Shown piece by piece: positions 23,634 to 35,264 of a DNA stretch of 36,873 nucleotides. Position 1 is the stretch's first letter, and each line of letters opens with the position of its first letter. The DNA is from Alphaproteobacteria bacterium. Its GTDB lineage: Bacteria; Pseudomonadota; Alphaproteobacteria; Reyranellales; Reyranellaceae. Location of the stretch: the NCBI GenBank assembly GCA_016870115.1, contig VGCH01000028.1, forward strand, positions 1-36,873, written 5' to 3'. The translations under genes were made by a program, and so were the position numbers. The notes under the pieces are model-generated. The model was not told the DNA's origin. It ran no database searches and saw nothing but the letters and a program-made list of their open reading frames with translations.

Positions 23634-24479
23634 ATGCCCGCGACGGCCCTCCGCGTCGCCACGCTGACGACGCTTGCCATGCTGGCCTTCGCCGCGAACT
23701 CGCTGATCTGTCGCGTGGCGCTGCGCGACACCGCGATCGACGCCGGGACCTTCACGGCGGTTCGACTGGCCGCCGGTGCGCTGGTGCTGATCGTCGTCCT
23801 GCGTCTGCGCGGCCTGGCACCGACATCCGGCGGCAGCTGGCCGGCGGCCGCGATGCTGTTCGGCTATGCCGCGTTTTTCTCCTTCGCGTACCGTGATCTC
23901 ACTGCGGCGACGGGAGCCTTGCTGTTGTTCGGCGCGGTGCAGCTCACCATGAGCCTGTGGGGCCTCGCGCGCGGCGAACGACCGGGCTTGCGGCCCTTGG
24001 CCGGGCTCACCATCGCCATGGGCGGTCTGGTCTGGCTCCTCCTGCCCGGTCTGTCGGCTCCCCCCGTGCTGGGCGCGGCCTGCATGATCGCCGCTGGCGC
24101 CGCGTGGGGTGCCTACTCCATCTTGGGTCGGGGCGGCGGCGATCCGGTCGCGGCAACGGCGGGCAACTTCGTGCGGTCCGTCCCCTTCGCCGCGGTTCTG
24201 ATGCTGGCCGGCGCGTCGACGGCGGAGGCCGATCTGGCGGGCGCCGCCTGGGCGGCACTCTCCGGCGCGGTGACCTCGGGACTGGGGTACGTGATCTGGT
24301 ATGCCGCGCTGCCGTTCCTGCGACCCGTGCAGGCTGCAACCGTACAGCTCAGTGTGCCCGCCATCGCCGCGTTGGGCGGCATCGCGCTGCTGGCCGAGCC
24401 CTTCGATGCGCGACTGATCGCCGCCAGCGCCGCGATCCTGGGCGGCATCGCGCTTGCTGTCTTGCCCAAGCGCAGCTAA
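23634..24479 (+). CDS. EamA/DMT family transporter
   Basis: A 281-residue polytopic membrane protein with about 10 predicted helices. It is arranged as two EamA halves: 'LAMLAFAANSLICRVALRD' opening the first, and 'GAAWGAYSILGRGGGDP' opening the second, around residue 160. Members export or import small metabolites such as amino acids and nucleotides; the substrate here is unknown. The last helix ends 'ILGGIALAVLPKRS'. The ATG at 23634 is four bases after the MDR stop, so it is likely co-transcribed with gpt and the oxidoreductase. Confidence 0.88.
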   Translation: MPATALRVATLTTLAMLAFAANSLICRVALRDTAIDAGTFTAVRLAAGALVLIVVLRLRGLAPTSGGSWPAAAMLFGYAAFFSFAYRDLTAATGALLLFGAVQLTMSLWGLARGERPGLRPLAGLTIAMGGLVWLLLPGLSAPPVLGAACMIAAGAAWGAYSILGRGGGDPVAATAGNFVRSVPFAAVLMLAGASTAEADLAGAAWAALSGAVTSGLGYVIWYAALPFLRPVQAATVQLSVPAIAALGGIALLAEPFDARLIAASAAILGGIALAVLPKRS

Positions 24480-24501
24480 CGAAGGCGCAGGGGAAGAATA
24501 C

Positions 24502-26349
24502 GTGGATTTGAATCGATCGGCTCTGCGGCGGACAGTCGACATGTTCGCGGCGCTGGGGCTGTTTCTCCTGGGGTTTCTGTATTTCGGGGCCGACTACCGG
24601 GCCCGAGAGCAGGACTACCACTTCTACCAGAAGTATCTCGGCTCCGCGGTGAGCATCTACTGCACCGGCTCGCCGGATGTTCGCGACTATCTCATCTCCA
24701 TCAAGGTCGTTCGGGAGCGGCTGGATCTCGCCGCCGTCGATTGCGCGGCACTCGCGGCGAGTCCGCGGTTGGCCAAGTCCATGTTCAACGGGTGGCACGA
24801 CTCGCACGTCGTGTTCTCGACCCTGACCGGCCATATGTGGCGCTGGTGGGGGCTGAGTTGGCAGGCGCTGTGGCCGATGATCGGAATGGTCGCCGGGCTG
24901 ACATTCCTCGCGCTCTACGCAGCCGCGCGCTCGTTTGGGCTTCCCTGGTACTGGGCAGTCGCCGGCATTCCCATTCTCATCCCCTGGAGTGGCATCGCCG
25001 ATAGCGTTCCCTTCTTCCGCGACTTTTCGAAGGTGCCGTTCATCCTCGCTGCGTTCGCCTTATGTGGCGTCTTCTTCAGGGCTCAGAACGGGCTCCGCGC
25101 CCGGCTCGCCGCTTCGGCCGGGATCGCCGTCATCGTCGCGATCGGAGTCGGCTTTCGTCAGGACGTGGTGGTGATTCTGCCGGTGGCGCTCGCCGCCATG
25201 GCGCTGGCCGAGCCCCCGCTTGCATCACGCGCCCCAAGGCTGACCGCCGCCGCCACGATGGCCCTCACGCTCGGCGTGTACGTCGCGATGACAATCGCGA
25301 TGGCCGGCCTCAAGACCACCGAACCGCTCAAGTACGAGGGCATGCCGCACTTCATGGTGCAGGGTTTCGCCGATGAATTCTGGGAGGCTGCAGGTCTGCC
25401 CCTGCGCGGCCTGTCGTTCGTGGCGCTCTACACCGACTTCCTGCCCTGGGCGTTCGTCGACGCCAACGACGCCCGCGTCATCGACTATGTTCTAAGCTAC
25501 GACCCCGCCTATCGCGAGAGTGCGGTCGCGCTGTGGTTTCGCTGGGCCGCGCTTGCCCCGGCGGACATGCTGGTCCGGATTCTGACGGCGCTTTCGGCGA
25601 TCGCGCACATGTTCTGGCACGTGAAGTGGCCTGTGCTCTGGCTCGCGCTTCTGCTGCTTCTCGCGGCGGTGGGCGGCTGGCGGCGGGCTACGTTTGTCGG
25701 CGCGACGATGGCCATATTGGTCGCCGTCGGCACCTTGCAGTTCGGAGCCCGCCATGTGCTCCATCTGATCTTTCTCGATCGCGTTCTGCTCGCGGCCATC
25801 GCGGTCGGGCTGGTGCCCGCGCTGCTCTCGCTGTGGCGCCGCCGCCCAGCACCGGACTGGAAACCCCCGGCGATCGCCGTCGCACTGCTCACCGTGACAA
25901 TCGCCTCAACGGTCGCCGTCGCAACGCAGCTCCAATCACGTGGGTTGGCGGATTTCTCAGCGCGGCTTGAGGCCCTGCCCTGGGTGCCCACCGAAGCCGA
26001 GCATCGCCAGCGGGCACCCGAGGCGCGTGAAGCGTGGCTCAGGCTTGAGGTCGACCCGGCGATGTGTCCGGGCGGGCGATTCTCGATCAAGGCAGATGCC
26101 GAGGGTTTGTCGAGGTCCTACACTGCTGACGGCGCAGGGGGTCGGCGATTCGTCTACCTCGCGGTTACCGATCCAGCGATTGTTCCCGTCAGCTTCACCG
26201 TCGAGTCGGAGTCTTGCGTTGTCGCCAGGCATTGGGGTCCGTTGGGCGACGGATCGCTGGCACCCGTGCAATTCTTCGATCCGCGGGCGGCACTTGCCGG
26301 TAACAGGCTCCTGGATCACCTTGCACGCGCGGTGGGTGCATTGTTCTGA
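24502..26349 (+). CDS. Large polytopic membrane protein, possible GT-C-type enzyme
   Basis: A 615-residue protein with a GTG start preceded by AGGGGAAG, which decides against the longer frame from 24454. One helix near the N-terminus (about 14-30) is followed by a loop of about 80 residues with Asp, Tyr and Cys. Around eight or nine further hydrophobic helices run to about residue 480, and a soluble, beta-rich C-terminal domain of about 120 residues with two Cys closes the protein. Large first loop plus many helices is the plan of GT-C lipid-linked sugar transferases. However, I see no conserved catalytic motif, so this is a suggestion only. It converges tail-to-tail with the FkbM gene over 23 bases and adjoins the glycan cluster. 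Confidence 0.7.
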   Translation: MDLNRSALRRTVDMFAALGLFLLGFLYFGADYRAREQDYHFYQKYLGSAVSIYCTGSPDVRDYLISIKVVRERLDLAAVDCAALAASPRLAKSMFNGWHDSHVVFSTLTGHMWRWWGLSWQALWPMIGMVAGLTFLALYAAARSFGLPWYWAVAGIPILIPWSGIADSVPFFRDFSKVPFILAAFALCGVFFRAQNGLRARLAASAGIAVIVAIGVGFRQDVVVILPVALAAMALAEPPLASRAPRLTAAATMALTLGVYVAMTIAMAGLKTTEPLKYEGMPHFMVQGFADEFWEAAGLPLRGLSFVALYTDFLPWAFVDANDARVIDYVLSYDPAYRESAVALWFRWAALAPADMLVRILTALSAIAHMFWHVKWPVLWLALLLLLAAVGGWRRATFVGATMAILVAVGTLQFGARHVLHLIFLDRVLLAAIAVGLVPALLSLWRRRPAPDWKPPAIAVALLTVTIASTVAVATQLQSRGLADFSARLEALPWVPTEAEHRQRAPEAREAWLRLEVDPAMCPGGRFSIKADAEGLSRSYTADGAGGRRFVYLAVTDPAIVPVSFTVESESCVVARHWGPLGDGSLAPVQFFDPRAALAGNRLLDHLARAVGALF

Positions 26350-26372: not shown

Positions 26373-28625
26373 CTAGCGTCGCGACAGCAACCACGGCCGC
26401 TGCCAGGCGCGCGCCGCCGCCCGCAACCGCTGGCGCAGCGATACGTTCGCGTAGTCGGGGGCGTGGAAGGCCGAGGGATCGGCATCAAACCGGGCGATGT
26501 AGTCGCGGTAGCCGAGGGGGAACAGCGCATCTGGTTGCGCCTGGCGCGCCAGTTCGTCGAGCGCGGCGTCGACATCGACCAACCCGGCAATGCTGTCGCG
26601 GAATACGATCAACAGCTCGGCTGCGGAATCCGGTTGCTGGCGGAGCGAGAAAAGCGCTGCGAGCTTGATCAGCTTCAGCGGCGTCATTCTCCGCGCGGCG
26701 TCCTGCCAGTACGCCGCGGCGGGATCGCGAGCGTAGAACGCATCGGCCTGAACGACGCGGCCGCGCACGGTCTCGGCCGGCCACGGCAGGATGAAGGGCT
26801 GCGGGAGCGTCGCCATGGAGTAGTTGCGGGGCTCCAGGGCGAACAGCTCGAAGCCGCACTCGCGCATGAATCGGTCGGTGTTGTGGAACGTGTGCTCCCA
26901 GTCTGCGTCCCCGCCGAACAGGTTCACTTCCAGCCCGAGCGCGAGCACAGAGAGGCGGTCCAGGTGGCCTTCGAGTGACCGGAGGACCTGGAAGTCGGCA
27001 CCGTCGATGTCGATCTTGACGTAGTCGAGATCGCTCCAGCCGGACTGCGCCACAAGGGCCGCGATGTCGAGGCGCTCCCCCGATCCGACAGTGCGCGTCA
27101 TCTGCCAGTCGTTGCGATGGATCTTCTCGAGATGCGAGGCGTCGGCGCGATCCGCGCGCTGACGCGAGTGCTGCCAGGCGCTAGTTCGCGGCATCGGATT
27201 GTGCACGAACGCCGGACGGCCGACGAACAGCGCGGCGCGCAGATGATCAGCTGGCAATGTCGCGAGTCCCGCTCGATAGCTGACGCCAGGTAGCGTCTCT
27301 TGCCTGGCCAGACGCTGGCACTCATCCGCACTCGCGTCGATCCCGATGGCGCGCAGCCGGTCGCCGAACACCCGCAACGGGGTCTCGATGCCGAGGGCAC
27401 AGCCGACGTCGATCGCCGAGAAGTGCGCGCTCCCGAGCGCCCGCCGCACGCGCGCCGCGAATGGCGTCGACACCGGCGGATCGCCCTCGAGTGAGCGATG
27501 GGGCGGCACTTTCCAGGCGTTCCTGTAGGCATCGAGAGCTGCGGTAGCCCGTGCCATCAGGCTCGGACTGTACCGCTGCGGGTCGGGCAGGAGGGTTTCG
27601 GGGTGGTCGCGACACCGCTCCCTGTAAGTGGTGAAGTCGCGCGGCGACGCTGACGCTGGCTGGGACTGAGCCGCCAGAAGGTCGAGCGCCCGATCGACGT
27701 CGAAGAGGCCGGACACGCGATCGCGAAACCCGAGGATCAATTCGGCAGCACTGTCGGGCTGGTTCCAGAGCGCGAATATCGCGGCTAGCTTCGCCAGCTT
27801 CTCGCCGGACCAGCGGTCGGTGAACGCTCGCGCATGCGAAGATGCGAGGTCGCGCGCATAGTAGGCCTCCGCCTGGAACACCCGGCCGGTGACAGTCTGG
27901 GCCGGGGCGCGGATCGCGAAGGGCGCCGGTAAGGCAGCCATGGCGTAGCGCCGTGGCTCCAAGGCGTAGAGGTCGAATCCGCGCGACCGCATGAACTTTT
28001 CGGTGTTGTGGAACACGTGTTCCCACTCACCGGTTCCGCCGAACAGGTTCACCTCCATACGCGCCGCGAGAACCCCAAGAGACTCCAGTTGTCCGTCAAG
28101 GCTCTGCAACACCTGGTAGTCCGGGCCGTCGATATCGATCTTGATGAGGTCGACATCGTTCCAGCCCAGAGCCGCGACTTCCTCGGCAAGAACCACGGGT
28201 CGCTCGGGATCGGCCAGCGCGGTCATGCGCCAGGCATTGTTGCTGAGCTTCTCGTCCAGCGATGCGCTCTCCAAGCGGTCGCGCGTCAGGTCCGCCGCCC
28301 GTTGCGCGCTGAAGCGTGGGAACGGATCGTTGACGTAGCGCGGCTTTCCCGCAACGATCGCGGCGAATGGGTGATCCGGGGGCAGGCCGACAAACGCCCC
28401 CTTGTAGATAATGTTGCCCGAGGGCTCCGCCGCCGCGAGACGCCGGCACTCTTCGACACTGGCGTCGAGCGCCAGCACGCGCAGTCGCTCGCCGAATGCG
28501 CGCCACGCCGGATCGATACCTCCAGCGCACCCAACGTCGATTGCGGTAAATCTCTCGGAACGAAGATGGCGACCGATAAAGGCAGCGAACTCTAGGCTCA
28601 CGCGCCGAGACTGCTCGTGGTTCAT
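26373..28625 (-). CDS. Tandem-duplicated FkbM-family methyltransferase
   Basis: A 750-residue protein with two copies of an FkbM-type SAM-dependent methyltransferase unit, about 375 residues apart. Matching motifs in copy 1 and copy 2 are IDVGCA(G/L)GI (SAM loop, 29 and 405) and KIDIDG(P/A)D(Y/F)QVL (162 and 537). Also paired are EVNLFGG (191 and 566), WEH(V/T)FHNT (201 and 576) and a C-terminal helical extension 'QPDSAAEL' (299-ish and 674-ish) that also repeats. Both copies keep the SAM loop, so both may be active. FkbM enzymes O-methylate sugars or polyketide hydroxyls. ATG 28625 is chosen over GTG 28682, which would overlap the upstream gene by 49 bases. It ends the minus-strand glycan operon. 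Confidence 0.88.
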   Translation of the reverse strand: MNHEQSRRVSLEFAAFIGRHLRSERFTAIDVGCAGGIDPAWRAFGERLRVLALDASVEECRRLAAAEPSGNIIYKGAFVGLPPDHPFAAIVAGKPRYVNDPFPRFSAQRAADLTRDRLESASLDEKLSNNAWRMTALADPERPVVLAEEVAALGWNDVDLIKIDIDGPDYQVLQSLDGQLESLGVLAARMEVNLFGGTGEWEHVFHNTEKFMRSRGFDLYALEPRRYAMAALPAPFAIRAPAQTVTGRVFQAEAYYARDLASSHARAFTDRWSGEKLAKLAAIFALWNQPDSAAELILGFRDRVSGLFDVDRALDLLAAQSQPASASPRDFTTYRERCRDHPETLLPDPQRYSPSLMARATAALDAYRNAWKVPPHRSLEGDPPVSTPFAARVRRALGSAHFSAIDVGCALGIETPLRVFGDRLRAIGIDASADECQRLARQETLPGVSYRAGLATLPADHLRAALFVGRPAFVHNPMPRTSAWQHSRQRADRADASHLEKIHRNDWQMTRTVGSGERLDIAALVAQSGWSDLDYVKIDIDGADFQVLRSLEGHLDRLSVLALGLEVNLFGGDADWEHTFHNTDRFMRECGFELFALEPRNYSMATLPQPFILPWPAETVRGRVVQADAFYARDPAAAYWQDAARRMTPLKLIKLAALFSLRQQPDSAAELLIVFRDSIAGLVDVDAALDELARQAQPDALFPLGYRDYIARFDADPSAFHAPDYANVSLRQRLRAAARAWQRPWLLSRR

Positions 28626-28633
28626 GCCAAACT

Positions 28634-29146
28634 CTAGGCGTAGTCGCGCTCGGAGAGGATCGGATCGCGCACCGGCCACCACATCTTGTAGTCGGGGTCA
28701 TTCCACTTGATGGTGAATTGACCGGCGCGATCGTAGTATGTGGTCTGCTTGTAGTGGAACACCGCGACGTCCGACATCACTAGGTAGGCGTTCCCGAACC
28801 GGGCCGGAATGTAGACCTGCAACCGGTTGTCGCTTGAAAGCGTGAATCCTTGCCACTGGCGATACTGCCGGGACGCCGGATCGTTGTTCACGACATTAAC
28901 GTAGAGCCTGCCATACGGACACGAAATCAGCTTCACGGTCTTGTTGTCGCCGTGCACGCCCCTAAGCACATGCCGGCCGGACGTGGCATAGTCATCCTGG
29001 ATGAAGCGATCGACAATGCCGGCGGCGTGGTAGGCTGCCTCGTTGTAGGTTTCCACGTAGTCGCCGCGGAAATCCTCATACATGGAAAGCGGGTGGATGA
29101 GCAGCACGCCGTCCAGTCGGGTGCGTTCGACCTTCAATCCGGACAT
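28634..29146 (-). CDS. RmlC-like dTDP-4-keto-sugar 3,5-epimerase family protein
   Basis: A 170-residue cupin with clear RmlC pattern. It has 'GRHVLRGVHGD' containing the catalytic His, then 'KLISCPYGRLYVNVV', 'IPARFGNAYLVMSD', 'TTYYDR' and 'IKWNDPDYKMWWP'. RmlC epimerases convert 4-keto-6-deoxy sugar nucleotides. The usual 'AHGF' after the IP element is 'GNAY', losing a His. The cluster lacks rmlA and rmlB but has gmd, so the substrate may be a GDP- rather than dTDP-linked 4-keto sugar; this is inference. ATG 29146 is preferred over TTG 29161 because GAAGGAGA precedes it by about seven bases. It lies 11 bases after the FAD gene and eight before the FkbM gene. Confidence 0.85.
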   Translation of the reverse strand: MSGLKVERTRLDGVLLIHPLSMYEDFRGDYVETYNEAAYHAAGIVDRFIQDDYATSGRHVLRGVHGDNKTVKLISCPYGRLYVNVVNNDPASRQYRQWQGFTLSSDNRLQVYIPARFGNAYLVMSDVAVFHYKQTTYYDRAGQFTIKWNDPDYKMWWPVRDPILSERDYA

Positions 29147-29157
29147 CGCACTCTCCT

Positions 29158-30645
29158 TCAAACAGCCTTGTCACGGGGATGGTTGCACGCGGCATAGAAT
29201 TCGTCGTTCTCGTAGAGATGGATCAGTTCGGGGTGGATACCGAAACCCTCGATGCCGCGCTTTGCGTAGATCGACTCGGCGGTCTTGCGGATCGCGTCGC
29301 GGTAACGCGCGTGGGCGTAGGGCGGCAACTGAAGCCCGTGCTGGATCTCGCCCCCGAGGTCCGCCGAGACATAGTCGTCGAGCGCCTGTTCCTTGTTCTT
29401 GAACGAGATCAGCTTGCGGCTCGGCGCGAACCGTTTGGGCAACGCGCTCTGGCCGCTCAGGATGTCGCGCGCCAGTTCGCGGCAGATGTAGGGGCTCAGG
29501 GTGAAACCGTCGCGTTTTGTGCCGTTGGCGAACCAGACTCCAGGCAGGTGGGACTGCCCGAGCAGCGGGAACGTGTCCATTGAAACGGGCCGGAATCCCG
29601 GCCCGCGCAGGCCGACCGTGCACCAGAAGAAACCCTTGTTGATCTCCTCAACGACGCTGCGCATCAGTACATGAATCGCGTGCAGGCGGGGCTGGTGTTC
29701 CGGCTCAAACCAAACCCCGGAAGACGCCCCGAGGTAGTACTCACCTCGGCCGTAGGGCACCAGGTGAACACCGCACGCCCCGCCGCGATCCGTGGTGCGG
29801 ACCACCGCGTCGATCTCAAGCGCAGTCGGATCAAGCCCGCCATACTTGTGGACCCAGCCCGGGAAAGTGACGTCGATACCCGAGCCGGCCCCCCACAGTA
29901 GCCTCGGCACCTCGCGGCGCAGCCCGGGAACCTGATCGACCAAAGCCTGGGCGAAGGAGCCGTTCGCGAGGACAACTGTCTTCGTGGTGAGTTTGCTTCC
30001 GTCCGACAGCGTCAATGTCTTGTCCGCGCTGCCGAAGGGTAGCCGCATCCCGACCTCGAACTTGTCGACCGTGGCGTCGAACTGGACCACGTTCCGTGCC
30101 GCGCAGAACCGCTCGTACGCCGCCAGAACCTTTCGCGAATCGATGTGGCCATCCGGACACCGCACCACGCGTGTGGCCTGTCCGCGCTGCTCGGGCTTCA
30201 GCCAGGGAACCGAATCCGGCGCCACGACATCGTGCTTCACGCCACGTTTGCTCATGGTTTCGATAATGTAGTCGACGGCGCGGACCTCGTGCGGTGACCC
30301 CAGGGCGTTGTTCAGGATGTAGGTCGTCCAGCCAACCTTGAGCGGCTCGGCGTCAAACTCGGACAATGCCGCCGCATGCGCGTCCCACAGGCCGTGCGCG
30401 GCGATCGTGAGCTCGGCACGATCCGCCAGGGCCGGATTCTCGAATTGCCCGTGCGCGATCTCCGCCCAGCAGTTGATCATCGCACCTGCCGTTGTTGTCG
30501 CTGCGCCGCGTCGATGCGATGGCCCCACGACCGCGATCGAAACAGACGGATCCTGCTGCCGCAGGAAATATGCCGTCCCCAGCCCGAGGGCGGCGTTGCC
30601 GACAATCACAACATCGAAGGTCATCCGGTTCGCGATGGCGGCCAT
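29158..30645 (-). CDS. FAD-dependent oxidoreductase (DAO family)
   Basis: A 495-residue flavoenzyme. The N-terminal dinucleotide motif GNAALGLG lies at 16-23 after a beta strand (FDVVIVG). A later 'KTVVLANGSFAQALVDQVPGL' is the second FAD-contacting strand, and 'GLRGPGFRPVSMDTFPLLG' with 'GVWFANGTKRDGFTLSP' matches the C-terminal FAD-binding part of the DAO fold. DAO enzymes oxidise amines, amino acids or alcohols. This substrate is unknown, but lying between sugar-biosynthesis genes it could act on an amino- or keto-sugar. ATG 30645 has AAGGGAG six bases upstream, so the longer frame to 30714 is not needed. It is 28 bases after the glycosyltransferase gene and overlaps nothing. Confidence 0.85.
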   Translation of the reverse strand: MAAIANRMTFDVVIVGNAALGLGTAYFLRQQDPSVSIAVVGPSHRRGAATTTAGAMINCWAEIAHGQFENPALADRAELTIAAHGLWDAHAAALSEFDAEPLKVGWTTYILNNALGSPHEVRAVDYIIETMSKRGVKHDVVAPDSVPWLKPEQRGQATRVVRCPDGHIDSRKVLAAYERFCAARNVVQFDATVDKFEVGMRLPFGSADKTLTLSDGSKLTTKTVVLANGSFAQALVDQVPGLRREVPRLLWGAGSGIDVTFPGWVHKYGGLDPTALEIDAVVRTTDRGGACGVHLVPYGRGEYYLGASSGVWFEPEHQPRLHAIHVLMRSVVEEINKGFFWCTVGLRGPGFRPVSMDTFPLLGQSHLPGVWFANGTKRDGFTLSPYICRELARDILSGQSALPKRFAPSRKLISFKNKEQALDDYVSADLGGEIQHGLQLPPYAHARYRDAIRKTAESIYAKRGIEGFGIHPELIHLYENDEFYAACNHPRDKAV

Positions 30646-30673
30646 CCGCTGCTCCCTTGCGTGCGCTGCCGCC

Positions 30674-31798
30674 TCAAGCGCCCAGGCGCTGGGTCGGCAG
30701 CTCGATGTTCCCAAGCCCCCAATCGGGGCCGTTCATGACATACGATCTCGTGCCCCGAACGATGTCCGAGAACACTGCTTCGTGCTCGGCGTACTCCATA
30801 CCCTCGTTGAAACCGGCCCGTGCCGACCGGTCGTGATCGGCGTGATACACCGCGTGTCGATGGTCGAAAACTGCCTGACGATAACCTGCGGCGAAGAGTT
30901 GCATGACGGCGTAGCTGTCCGTGTGCATGTAGATTTCGGTCGATTCTGGCATGCCTTGAATCTTCTCAAACGCAGCGCGCGGCGCGAGCAGGAAGTCGCC
31001 CGCCGCGTTGGTGTGGAGATTGAACCGCGTATAGTAGGTCCGCGCAGACCATTCGTCGCGCCAGGCGCGGTGTGCGGCGGATCGCCACCCGACGCGCCAA
31101 GCGAGATCGTAGAGGCGATCGGTGCGTCGGCGGCGCTCGGCCGAAACGCAATCGATGATTCCAGTGGCGGGCTCGACGACGTCGCCTGACTCAAGGATCG
31201 ATGCCGCATCGCCCGCGGCCGATGGATCCACCGGGTTGGAGATCGCGTGCCCACTCGTGCTGTGGCGTCGGTGGACAGCGAAGACGTTCGCTCGTGCCGC
31301 CGCCTCGATCCGTTCTCCGGCCTCTTCCCGGCAGGGTTCAAAGTCGAAGTCCCGACGGTCGGCACGGTAGAAGTGCCGCTCCGACAGCGCCCTGCGAGAG
31401 ATCACCTCCATGACGCTCTGGCCCGCATAGATGTCTTGATTCATGACCAGCGAGAAGACGCCCCGGCTACGCCGGATCGCGGCGTTCCGACCGAAATAGT
31501 CAAGCATCGGGCGGCCCCGAGGACCAGCTAGCTGACGATGAAGCTCCGGCGGCACCGTAACGTGCAGCACGTCGCCCAGCGCACCCCAGTCGAAAGCGTC
31601 GCGCAGCGGCTTCTTGTCGGGTGGCGGATTCCAGTCGCACACTACGAACTCGAACAACCCCGGCCAGCGGCGCGTGTAGGGCGCGTAGTACTCGATGAAG
31701 CGTGCCATGCGCAGCTCGAGGTCGCCGCCATAGCCGTCGTTGCGGTTGACGAACGCGACACTCACATACGGATCGACCGTGCCAGCGCGTTCAGGCAC
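30674..31798 (-). CDS. Putative GT-A-type glycosyltransferase
   Basis: A 374-residue protein that opens with a Rossmann-like strand 'VSVAFVNRNDGYGGD', a form common in GT2-like enzymes. It continues with 'LDYFGRNAAIRRSRGVFSLVMNQDIYA', split here by context, in which 'NAAIRRSRG...NQD' resembles the 'NxGxxxAxG...DxD' region that holds the sugar-nucleotide metal ligand. A 'RRDFDFEP' acidic patch follows near residue 150. The assignment is by pattern only, and the donor and acceptor are unknown. The GTG start overlaps the methyltransferase stop by eight bases, so the two are translationally coupled. Gene context (gmd, aminotransferase, methyltransferases) supports a role in glycan assembly. Confidence 0.62.
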   Translation of the reverse strand: MPERAGTVDPYVSVAFVNRNDGYGGDLELRMARFIEYYAPYTRRWPGLFEFVVCDWNPPPDKKPLRDAFDWGALGDVLHVTVPPELHRQLAGPRGRPMLDYFGRNAAIRRSRGVFSLVMNQDIYAGQSVMEVISRRALSERHFYRADRRDFDFEPCREEAGERIEAAARANVFAVHRRHSTSGHAISNPVDPSAAGDAASILESGDVVEPATGIIDCVSAERRRRTDRLYDLAWRVGWRSAAHRAWRDEWSARTYYTRFNLHTNAAGDFLLAPRAAFEKIQGMPESTEIYMHTDSYAVMQLFAAGYRQAVFDHRHAVYHADHDRSARAGFNEGMEYAEHEAVFSDIVRGTRSYVMNGPDWGLGNIELPTQRLGA

Positions 31799-32330
31799 GG
31801 GTCGCCTCGACGTTCAGCATCATCAGTCGGCCATTCGTCTTGTCCATGTGCGGCAGATACGCCTGGCTGAAATCGTCAATCCCGGCCTTGCCGATGTCCG
31901 TCTCGCGCCAGTCGTAGCGGCGCACGTCGCGGAACCCGGCGTCGACCAGCCCGGCCGCCAGATTGCGGAAATCGAAAATCATGCCGTGCCAGTCGTAGTC
32001 ATCTTTCTGGCCGCCGATCAGCAGTCCCAGGAGTTCATCGACATTGCCGGCCTCGCGGTAACGCTCGACCGCGGCAGAGAAGTCGGCAGTCGACAGACGC
32101 AGCGATGCCCCGGGCTTGAGGACGCGCGCCCACTCGCGGACCACACCCACCCACTCGCGCCGCCCGAAATGCTCGATAGCCGCGCAGCTGTAAACGAAAT
32201 CGACCGACCCGTCGGCGAACGGCAACTGACGAAGGTCGGCGAGCAGGTCGGCCGACTTGTCCGTCATGATGTCGATGTTGATGTAGCTGGGAAGCCTGAT
32301 CCTGCCACAGCCCAGGTGGAGCTTGATCAC
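31791..32330 (-). CDS. Class I SAM-dependent methyltransferase
   Basis: A 179-residue Methyltransf_11-type enzyme. The SAM motif 'LHLGCG' sits at 4-9, followed by 'YINIDI' (acidic end of strand 2), 'FADGSVDFVYSCAAIEHF' (motif around the catalytic face) and 'REWARVLKPGASLRLS'. This short family is common in polysaccharide loci. GTG start overlaps the gmd stop (GTGA). It could methylate the sugar, sugar nucleotide or a glycan end; the sequence does not tell which. Confidence 0.85.
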   Translation of the reverse strand: MIKLHLGCGRIRLPSYINIDIMTDKSADLLADLRQLPFADGSVDFVYSCAAIEHFGRREWVGVVREWARVLKPGASLRLSTADFSAAVERYREAGNVDELLGLLIGGQKDDYDWHGMIFDFRNLAAGLVDAGFRDVRRYDWRETDIGKAGIDDFSQAYLPHMDKTNGRLMMLNVEATRA

Positions 32331-33412
32331 GTCCGCCCCTCCATCCGGCGCGCGACGTCGGCATCATCGACCAGATCGGGAAACCCGAACTCGTCATGTA
32401 CAATATCGTACCGCACCATCAGCCGTGCGAGCGCCGGCGCAAGGGTGCGGGCGCGCCAGCCCAGTGTCCGCTCGGCAAGCCGTGGATCGGCACGCAGCCG
32501 CTCCGTCTCCAGCGGCCGAAAATAGACCGGGTCGACCGCTACGCGAACGGCGCCGGTGCGCCGGTCGCGCCCGCGCTCGTCGGCGCCTTGTCCGGACCAC
32601 CCGAGCTCGATGCCGACCACGGCGAAGGCCATCTCGGCGAACTGGCGAATCGTGTAGGCCGTGCCTGTGCCGATCACCAGATCGCAGGGTACGTCCCGTT
32701 GCAGGATGAGCCACATGGCCTCGACATATTCAGGGGCGTACCCCCAGTCTCGCACGGCATCGAGGTTACCGAGTCGCAGCATCTCCTGCTCACCCCGCGC
32801 GATACGCGCTGCGGCCTGCGTGATCTTCTTGGTGACGAAGTTCCGCCCGCGCCTTGGCGATTCATGGTTGAACAGGATGCCGTTGGAAGCGTGCATTCCA
32901 TACGCCTCACGATAGTTGCGCACGGTCCAGTAGCCAAAGAGCTTGCTGGTCGAGTACGGCGAGCGCGGTGTGAGCGGTGTTCCCTCGTGTTGCGGTTCGG
33001 TTCCCCGCAATCCGCCGAACAGCTCCGAGGTCGACGCCTGGTAAAAGCGCGCTTTGAGATCGACCTCGCGAATCGCGTTCAGCAGGCGGAGCGTGCCGAG
33101 GGCGTTGACCTGGGCCGAATAGTCGGGGACAGAGAAGGAGACGGCGACATGCGACTGCGCCGCCAGATGGTAGATCTCGGACGGTCCAACCCTAGCAAGT
33201 AGCGTATGCAACGACGACGTGTCGACGACATCGCCGTAGTGGGTGGTGAAGCGTTCGTGGAACAGGATGCGGTCGAGGCGACGAGAGGTGAACTCGGAAT
33301 TGCGGCGCACGATCCCGTGAACATCGTAGCCTTTGGCCAGCAGCAACTCGGCCAGGTAGGACCCGTCCTGGCCGCTGACCCCGGTGATGAGGGCCTTCTT
33401 TCGGGCGGTCAT
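32327..33412 (-). CDS. gmd: GDP-mannose 4,6-dehydratase
   Basis: Gmd converts GDP-D-mannose to GDP-4-keto-6-deoxy-D-mannose, the branch point to perosamine, fucose, colitose and rhamnose. The 361-residue product has the extended-SDR loop GVSGQDG at 11-17, 'STSELFGG' and YxxxK as Tyr153/Lys157 (SPYSTSKLFGYW). It also has the Gmd hallmark 'GILFNHESPRRG' and then 'FVTKKIT'. Most Gmd sequences have 'YGVSK', here 'YSTSK', with catalytic residues kept. 'LGNLDAVRDWGYAPEYVEAMW' confirms the nucleotide-sugar pocket. ATG 33412 has GAGGGAG upstream. It is the cluster's pathway entry point. Confidence 0.95.
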   Translation of the reverse strand: MTARKKALITGVSGQDGSYLAELLLAKGYDVHGIVRRNSEFTSRRLDRILFHERFTTHYGDVVDTSSLHTLLARVGPSEIYHLAAQSHVAVSFSVPDYSAQVNALGTLRLLNAIREVDLKARFYQASTSELFGGLRGTEPQHEGTPLTPRSPYSTSKLFGYWTVRNYREAYGMHASNGILFNHESPRRGRNFVTKKITQAAARIARGEQEMLRLGNLDAVRDWGYAPEYVEAMWLILQRDVPCDLVIGTGTAYTIRQFAEMAFAVVGIELGWSGQGADERGRDRRTGAVRVAVDPVYFRPLETERLRADPRLAERTLGWRARTLAPALARLMVRYDIVHDEFGFPDLVDDADVARRMEGRT

Positions 33413-33424
33413 CGCGTCGCTCCC

Positions 33425-34165
33425 TCAGCTCTTGCGCGCGTACAACCAAACGCGCCAGCTCACCGATCCCGCCGCACGGCGGGAATCGCGCCAGTCACGG
33501 AACTCGATATGCGAAAAGCCCGCCGCCCGGAAGGTGGCTTCCAGGGCCGGTCGAGTCCACAGATGGAGCCGGAGACGCTCGTCGAACCGTTCGACCGGTC
33601 GTCCGGGCGCCTCTACCTCGAACGAATAATCCAATTCGACCTCAGCGCCGCCCGGCACATAGCGCGGCGAAATGCGCTGTAGCAGTCGAACGCCCCCGGC
33701 GCGCTTCGTTCGCGTTTCCTCCCGTGGCGGATCGCGCTCTACCGCCTCGGCATGCCAGAGGTCGGCAAGAAAGCGGCCACCGGCAACCAACCTTTCCCCT
33801 ATGGCGCCCACGAACCCCGCGCGCGCCGCGGGCGGAATGTAGTTCAGCACGTGAAAGAAGGCCGCGGCGACGTCAAATCCAGTCTCGGGAAGCTCTTCCA
33901 CCGGGGTCGCATAGAGGGTGACATTGCGGCTGTCGGCGGCCTGCAACCGCGCCGCGCAGGCAGAATGGAAATCGGCGTCGATCTCGACGCTCACGACTTC
34001 GCGGCAGAAACGGCCGAGACGATGGCTGTGGCTGCCCGTGCCCGCGCCCAGCTCCAGCACGCGGCTCGTCGCGCCGGCGCCAGTGAGGGTCGCGAGCGTC
34101 ACGACATCGGAGTCGTAGTCCTTGTCGGCGAATAACGTGTCGTAGTGACGGACGAACGGCCTCAC
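33425..34165 (-). CDS. Class I SAM-dependent methyltransferase
   Basis: A 246-residue methyltransferase with SAM motif LELGAGTG at 37-44 and 'VVSVEID' at the second acidic strand. 'FDVAAAFFHVLNYIP' and 'GGRFLADLWHAEAVE' follow. The C-terminal part (about 160-230, 'VELDYSFEVEAPG', 'LWTRPALEATFRAAGFSHIEF') is typical of sugar N- or C-methyltransferases of the broad type. The open frame continues to 34384, but that part is the antisense of the aminotransferase. GTG 34165 (MRPFVRHYDTLF) lies eight bases after the aminotransferase stop and gives a normal N-terminus. An N-methyltransferase acting on the amino sugar is an attractive but unproven idea. Confidence 0.82.
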   Translation of the reverse strand: MRPFVRHYDTLFADKDYDSDVVTLATLTGAGATSRVLELGAGTGSHSHRLGRFCREVVSVEIDADFHSACAARLQAADSRNVTLYATPVEELPETGFDVAAAFFHVLNYIPPAARAGFVGAIGERLVAGGRFLADLWHAEAVERDPPREETRTKRAGGVRLLQRISPRYVPGGAEVELDYSFEVEAPGRPVERFDERLRLHLWTRPALEATFRAAGFSHIEFRDWRDSRRAAGSVSWRVWLYARKS

Positions 34166-34172
34166 GAGAGCA

Positions 34173-35264
34173 TCACGCGCCGAAATGTCGCCTGATCGTG
34201 CCGACGATATCGTCAAGCTGGCCGTCCGTGACATGGACATGGACCGGCAGGCAGAGCCCCTCGCGCGACAGCCGCTCGGACACCGGCAGCGAAGGCTGAT
34301 TCTCTTGCCGCAGCTTCGGCTGGAGATGCATGGGATAGAAGAAGCCGCGCGTCTGGATGCCCGCGGCTTCCAACGAATTCGCAAGCGCTTCGCGTTGGGC
34401 GGTCAATATGGGAAAGCGGAATGGAACAATGGTCGACCCGCGAATTCTCTTCATGAACCGAAGGTCGCCAACGCCGGCCAGACCGTCGGAGTAGCGGACG
34501 CGCTTTCGCTCCCGATCCGCGAGGATGGCGGGCAACTTGCCGAACTGGGCCAACCCGATCGCGGCCTGCAGATCGGTGATGCGGAAGTTCATTCCGAGGG
34601 ACGGATGGACGAAGGTGCCGGAATTCGGCCGACCCTGATTGCGGATAAGGCGGATACGCTCGGCGATGGCGTCATCGTCGGTCACCAGAATGCCGCCTTC
34701 GCCCGTCGTGATGGTCTTGTCGGAAAACAACGAAAAGACCCCGATATCGCCGAACGTGCCCGCAGACTTGCCGTCCAGGGTGACGCTCAGCGCCTGCGCC
34801 GCGTCCTCGATGATCGCAAGCCCTCGCCCGCGCGCCAGGTCGACGATCGGGGCCATATCGCAACACTGCCCGTAGATGTGCACTGGCATGAGCGCTCGCG
34901 TCGCCGGACCGATCGCCGCCTCGAATTGATCAGCGGCTACGGCGAACGTCTCCGGATCGACATCGACGAACACCGGCTTGAAACCGGCGTAGTGAGCGGC
35001 CGTCGCGGAGCCATAAAAGGTGAAAGACGGGATCAGAATCTCGTCTCCTGGCCTGGGCTCTAGCGCGAGAGCCGCCAGAAACAGGCCAAGCGTGCCGTTC
35101 GGCGCGAAGAACACGTGGCGCGCGCCGGTAAGTGTCGCGATCTTCTCCTGGAAGGCGCGTGCGAGCGGACCCTCGGTCAGCCAGCGCGCATCAAGCGGCG
35201 GCATGATCGCGGCCTTTTCGGCAGCGTCCACGGCGAGATCGACTTGTGTGATACGGTAGCTCAT
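34173..35264 (-). CDS. DegT/DnrJ/EryC1/StrS-family sugar aminotransferase
   Basis: A 363-residue PLP enzyme that transfers an amino group to a keto-sugar nucleotide. Asp154 (IIEDAAQAL) binds the PLP ring nitrogen and Lys183 (SDKTITTGEGG) is the Schiff-base lysine. 'GPLARAFQEKIATLTGARHV' near the N-terminus and 'LGMNFRITDLQAAIGLAQ' are standard. With gmd in the same cluster, GDP-4-keto-6-deoxymannose is the likely substrate, making GDP-perosamine as PerA/RfbE does. The sequence itself does not fix the sugar or position. It starts the minus-strand glycan run, with the methyltransferase eight bases downstream; 64 bases separate it from the lipoprotein gene. Confidence 0.88.
   Translation of the reverse strand: MSYRITQVDLAVDAAEKAAIMPPLDARWLTEGPLARAFQEKIATLTGARHVFFAPNGTLGLFLAALALEPRPGDEILIPSFTFYGSATAAHYAGFKPVFVDVDPETFAVAADQFEAAIGPATRALMPVHIYGQCCDMAPIVDLARGRGLAIIEDAAQALSVTLDGKSAGTFGDIGVFSLFSDKTITTGEGGILVTDDDAIAERIRLIRNQGRPNSGTFVHPSLGMNFRITDLQAAIGLAQFGKLPAILADRERKRVRYSDGLAGVGDLRFMKRIRGSTIVPFRFPILTAQREALANSLEAAGIQTRGFFYPMHLQPKLRQENQPSLPVSERLSREGLCLPVHVHVTDGQLDDIVGTIRRHFGA

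Follow-up and report, generated by a model that had tools for sequence, protein, structure and literature searches.

Our analysis addressed whether one polypeptide can hold two complete FkbM-type methyltransferases, and how such a protein would have arisen, for a gene on contig VGCH01000028.1 (assembly GCA_016870115.1) of an alphaproteobacterium in the Reyranellaceae. The window, meaning the whole stretch analysed, comprises 36,873 nucleotides (positions 1 to 36,873 of the forward strand). Within it, the minus-strand frame 26373-28682 is open throughout, and translation of the ORF from the ATG at 28625 gives 750 amino acids (Table 1). A first-pass annotation had proposed from the sequence that the protein encoded at 26373-28625 consists of two fused FkbM units, the product of an internal duplication of about 375 residues, and two full-length copies were indeed found at residues 9-372 and 385-746. 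Self-comparison, two PF05050 matches, the predicted fold and a residue-level check against 41 single-unit relatives all agree on this duplication. The dot-plot gave a single dominant diagonal at an offset of 375/376, with ungapped scores of 579 and 249 compared with 53 for the best other offset. Each of the motif pairs listed at residues 29/405, 162/537, 191/566 and 201/576 was located (I29/I405 beside D30/D406, K162/K537, E191/E566 and W201/W576, respectively), and both halves keep their SAM loop, which reads DVGCAGG in unit A and DVGCALG in unit B. SAM-binding residues are not confined to one half, nor is the repeat missing from the dot-plot, the two outcomes that the annotation had set against its own proposal.

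Alignment of the two halves showed that 174 of 361 residues are identical (48%), with an alignment score of 830, compared with a mean of 39.1 (SD 5.3, maximum 57) for 200 shuffled controls. Codon positions 1, 2 and 3 are identical at 61, 65 and 43%, indicating that the copies are old and that both are apparently coding. Since the halves differ so strongly in their DNA, particularly at third codon positions, and the ORF is open, an assembly or sequencing artefact was ruled out.

Table 1. Coordinates of the double-unit gene, its parts and its neighbours in the window
Feature	Position	Strand	Basis
Membrane protein, convergent with the double gene	24454..26349	+	No Pfam match
Double-unit FkbM-type methyltransferase gene	26373..28625	-	750 aa, ATG start 28625; PF05050 twice, TIGR01444
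Unit B, aa 376-750	26376..27500	-	PF05050 34.0 bits alone; 8/84 family-conserved positions lost
Unit B C-terminal helical extension (predicted), aa 634-750	26376..26726	-	Helices 649-715 in full-length model; aligns with unit A extension
Linker between units, aa 374-383	27477..27506	-	Junction alignment; pLDDT <50 at 343-386
Unit A, aa 1-373	27507..28625	-	48% identity with unit B; PF05050 26.5 bits alone; 55-57% identity with close single units
Unit A C-terminal helical extension (predicted), aa 263-373	27507..27839	-	Predicted helices 263-340; conserved in single-unit relatives
Unit A methyltransferase core (predicted), aa 11-258	27852..28595	-	AlphaFold2 model, seven Rossmann strands; PDB matches
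RmlC-like dTDP-sugar 3,5-epimerase family gene	28634..29161	-	PF00908 142.5 bits
FAD-dependent oxidoreductase, DAO family	29158..30714	-	PF01266; 66-67% identical orthologues in L075, L083
Conserved 374-aa protein, no Pfam match	30674..31798	-	Recurrent sugar-cluster member; 59% identical orthologues in L075, L083
Methyltransf_11 protein	31791..32330	-	PF08241 45 bits; 77-78% identical in L075, L083
GDP-mannose 4,6-dehydratase Gmd	32327..33412	-	TIGR01472 450.5 bits, cut-off 415
Class I methyltransferase	33425..34384	-	PF13649 37.7 bits
DegT/DnrJ/EryC1/StrS sugar aminotransferase	34173..35264	-	PF01041 329 bits

Against PF05050, the whole protein gave two matching stretches (58.4 bits, curated cut-off 22.7), and each unit alone also exceeded this cut-off (Table 1); the TIGR01444 match, at 38.8, was just over its cut-off of 37.7. 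Coverage of the Pfam profile was partial, spanning positions 89-173 (unit B) and 112-172 (unit A) of 173, as it was in the single-unit relatives tested. Because the units pass the cut-off yet match only part of the profile, just as single units do, we assign the protein on sequence grounds to a divergent subfamily of FkbM type, marked by a DVGC[SA]xG loop and a helical C-terminal domain.

The SAM-binding G-loop, the acidic residue after strand 2 (D54/D430), the KIDIDG motif and the HNT motif are present in both halves; in unit A, the core motifs are the G-loop D30-G36, D54, KIDIDG 162-167, E191 and HNT 206-208. An AlphaFold2 model of unit A (pLDDT 69, pTM 0.72) has seven Rossmann strands up to residue 258 followed by helices at 263-340. 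Residues 11-266 of this model are matched by class I methyltransferases in the PDB, the best with Z 12.9 and an rmsd of 3.2 for 152 residues. A PDB sequence search returned nothing significant. In the full-length model (pTM 0.45), unit B was folded into the same elements as unit A, although no aligned relative covered unit B. The models thus assign a class I methyltransferase core to both halves.

The first-pass annotation had also noted a repeated extension beyond the methyltransferase core and regarded it as foreign to the FkbM domain. The extension is repeated in both units, as described, because the unit as a whole is repeated; rather than being foreign, it is a normal part of this subfamily that aligns across single-unit relatives. 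Single units of ~360 aa align end to end with the fused units, extension included, and K279, P290-D291, E295, Q322 and Y334 of the extension are conserved among them. An extension specific to the fused protein was ruled out, as full-length single units carry it. Alignment and model together identify it as a predicted helical domain of the subfamily, which none of the listed PDB chains matched by the unit A model covers.

The gene's surroundings bear on its likely substrate. A co-directional run lies upstream, in the order DegT, methyltransferase, Gmd, Methyltransf_11, 374-aa protein, DAO oxidoreductase and RmlC, and the ATG of the double gene (28625) is 8 bp downstream of the stop codon of the RmlC-like gene. 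This sugar cluster is common to three other genomes, each with a single-unit relative nearby: L075 has the whole run in the same order, L083 has DegT to DAO, and L084 has the DegT-methyltransferase end, where the stretch stops. Because the single unit in these genomes is not directly behind RmlC, the double gene has an operon position peculiar to the window. In L086 and L088, a homologue of the convergent membrane protein, 39-42% identical along 598-617 aa, is encoded next to a single-unit relative. A different, 525-aa protein is encoded convergent to single units of clade I, the clade that holds both halves, at L075:4471-6048, L034:5832-7409 and L040:4953-6530. Its L075 and L034 copies are 82% identical, and the L075 copy has no Pfam match; a homologue in the window's genome (56%) sits elsewhere (G000:C3:77659-79206).

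Gmd produces GDP-4-keto-6-deoxymannose, a keto sugar of the kind that DegT-type enzymes aminate; the likely substrate is therefore a surface glycan containing deoxy or amino-deoxy sugars. We favour, although with no more than even confidence, a tandem SAM-dependent O-methyltransferase that acts on a surface glycan, binds one SAM in each half and arose by duplication and in-frame fusion. The analysis establishes the duplication, that both units are complete and retain their SAM-site residues, the fold class and the sugar-gene setting; the glycan substrate, the O-methylation and the activity of both halves are what we infer. A single-unit gene would have been duplicated and the copies then joined end to start in frame via a short flexible linker, each unit consisting of a predicted class I Rossmann core and a C-terminal helical domain. 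The enzyme would methylate hydroxyls on a surface glycan made by its neighbours, namely Gmd, the DegT aminotransferase, the RmlC-like epimerase and two further methyltransferases. With a SAM in each half, one polypeptide could carry out two methylations, at two positions or on two residues of the same glycan. In a more specific and unlikely version, the two diverged copies would work one after the other on adjacent hydroxyls, take the place of two separate enzymes and provide this lineage with a di-O-methylated surface sugar. FkbM methyltransferases recur as variable decorations of bacterial glycan islands and loci (PMC4875605). The glycan role rests on the neighbours, and the substrate may also be a protein or a small molecule.

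The soundness of both halves was assessed at 84 reference columns, each of them conserved in 95% or more of the 41 single units. Unit A has changed at 7 of these and unit B at 8 (77 and 76 kept), and two fast-evolving single units have changed at 10 and 11 of 87 conserved positions. Residues kept in both halves include D30/D406, G32/G408, G36/G412, D54/D430, K162/K537, D164/D539, D166/D541, E191/E566, H206/H581 and N207/N582. Judged by the conserved positions, neither half shows selective decay. Of the two options in the first-pass annotation, two methylations by one polypeptide or a catalytic and a structural half, this leans towards two active sites without proving them. Near the SAM loop, three changes occur in unit B only: G35 to L411, W41 to L417 and F78 to L454. 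Position 35 is glycine in nearly all single units and serine in a relative from Azospirillum, and the loop residue corresponding to L411 differs among ordinary FkbM proteins encoded by this genome and by a relative (I, W and D in DVGANIG, DIGAHWG and DVGANDG). The end branch is longer for unit B as well (0.9 vs 0.56-0.63). Since position 35 and W41 are changed only in unit B and its end branch is longer, unit B could be altered or weakened.

The B-only leucines and the longer branch would also fit a protein in which one half, more likely unit A, is catalytic and the other structural or regulatory, forming a covalent pseudo-dimer of the kind documented for the tandem methyltransferase domains of PRMT7 (PMC12595767). 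We consider this doubtful: unit B retains D406, G408, G412, D430, KIDIDG and E566, its losses match those of unit A and stay below those of the two fast-evolving single units, which have no partner, and the full-length model, itself weak, predicts no confident interface between the halves.

The frames of single-unit relatives were inspected directly in the regions that contain them. Among 76 genomes of its own order, 65 have members, and two units in one frame occur only in the window's genome. Class-wide (385 genomes), remote relatives were found outside the family in two genomes only, and the phylum set (398 genomes) added no further genome outside the family with relatives; some genomes in the order, class and phylum sets were searched more than once. 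Nearly every sister-genus genome (e.g. L031, L034 and L036) has single-unit relatives at 40-60% identity, and WP_237908261.1, encoded on the Azospirillum brasilense plasmid NZ_CP059454, is a single-unit relative at 40.6% identity; the polysaccharide island around it also encodes nucleotide-sugar dehydrogenases, epimerases, a glycosyltransferase and further methyltransferases. The viral contigs searched held no relative, and a PF05050 search of the window's own genome found five other FkbM genes with a single match apiece. Long frames in G023, G029 and G076 (687-724 aa) were ruled out as doubles, as each has one unit match; domain scans of G023 and G029 showed a single unit, the excess length being upstream open frame. 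A literature search found no fused FkbM protein. The fused architecture is new for this subfamily among the searched genomes and is one lineage-specific case of a known type of event.

Other branches of the family were observed in these genomes. Clade II single-unit paralogues (L034:12231-13337, L040:14667-15890 and many more) occur in most sister-genus genomes and are absent from the window's genome, estimated to be 100% complete, where the fused clade I gene is the sole member. A distant branch at 28-34% identity is found in some sister-genus genomes (L047:11676-12884, G005:C11:97306-98193), in one case with a clade II gene ~4 kb away. The clade I units L038:15869-16906, L039:15318-16412 and L040:6530-7624 (from G008, G011 and G014) stop early, ~20 residues short of the usual C-terminus, with the profile match continuing past the TAG.

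At the junction, unit A reaches the family C-terminus and is followed by about ten linker residues and then the start of unit B, where V384 occupies the position of the start methionine of single units (VSTPFAA vs MSTAFAA). The alignment here supports a fusion of complete genes. The first-pass annotation had suggested building trees of the halves. In the best trees obtained, units A and B came out as sisters, with support values of 95/90, 87/90 and 95/91, and both fell in clade I rather than being split between the two paralogue clades that are common. Each half sits on a long branch, however, and the two share six residues absent from all remaining rows, a count that the best other pair equals or exceeds. 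A local duplication followed by in-frame fusion is the simplest reading of these data, if an unproven one.

The halves could instead be two older paralogues that were brought together and had different substrates before the fusion, an origin compatible with any functional reading. The A+B grouping is unstarred in the larger tree (87/90), topologies that put only A or only B next to the core singles are statistically acceptable (p-AU 0.38 and 0.25), and sister-genus genomes often have two single-unit paralogues 5-9 kb apart. However, the halves do not represent one of each common paralogue clade, and when the other half was omitted, unit A joined the core singles (97/92) while unit B found no firm place (79/71), so we regard this origin as improbable. 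A functionally neutral fusion, in which a lost stop codon joined a pair of copies with the same, redundant activity and no new chemistry resulted, would suit a protein found in one genome whose halves group together in the best tree, but it is the least probable reading, because halves only 48% identical and 43% identical at third codon positions have both been kept for a long time, when redundancy should lead to decay of one copy.

The locus offers a clear example of how duplication and fusion would give a sugar-modifying methyltransferase a second active unit, and its many single-unit relatives serve as controls. It also delimits a divergent FkbM-type subfamily, recognizable by a DVGCSGG loop and a helical C-terminal domain, for which the current Pfam profile has only partial coverage. 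The protein resembles the FkbM family (PF05050/TIGR01444) in passing the curated cut-offs and in its SAM loop, K-I-D-[VI]-[DE]-G motif, predicted class I fold and sugar-gene context, which in other members includes flagellin glycosylation loci (PMC4875605). In contrast with that family, the Pfam match is confined to the profile's second half, DVGC[SA]xG replaces the DVGANxG loop, and each chain has two units with C-terminal helical domains. Single-unit relatives, WP_237908261.1 among them, share the whole unit including the extension, at 40-60% identity, along with sugar or polysaccharide neighbours, but have one unit per protein.

Fused or tandem methyltransferases are already known. RlmKL of E. 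coli consists of two fused rRNA methyltransferases that are separate proteins in other bacteria (PMC11194073); it likewise has two methyltransferase units in one chain with relatives that are separate elsewhere, and its units are each active, although its substrate is RNA and its domains, which are not FkbM-type, differ in site and chemistry. METTL13 has two methyltransferase domains that act on two sites (PMC11514484), and PRMT7 has two in one chain as a pseudo-dimer (PMC12595767). Both resemble the fused protein in having two methyltransferase domains per chain, but they are eukaryotic, act on protein substrates and belong to other methyltransferase families. We judge two working sites, as in RlmKL and METTL13, to be most likely, with a pseudo-dimer of the PRMT7 kind as the chief alternative.
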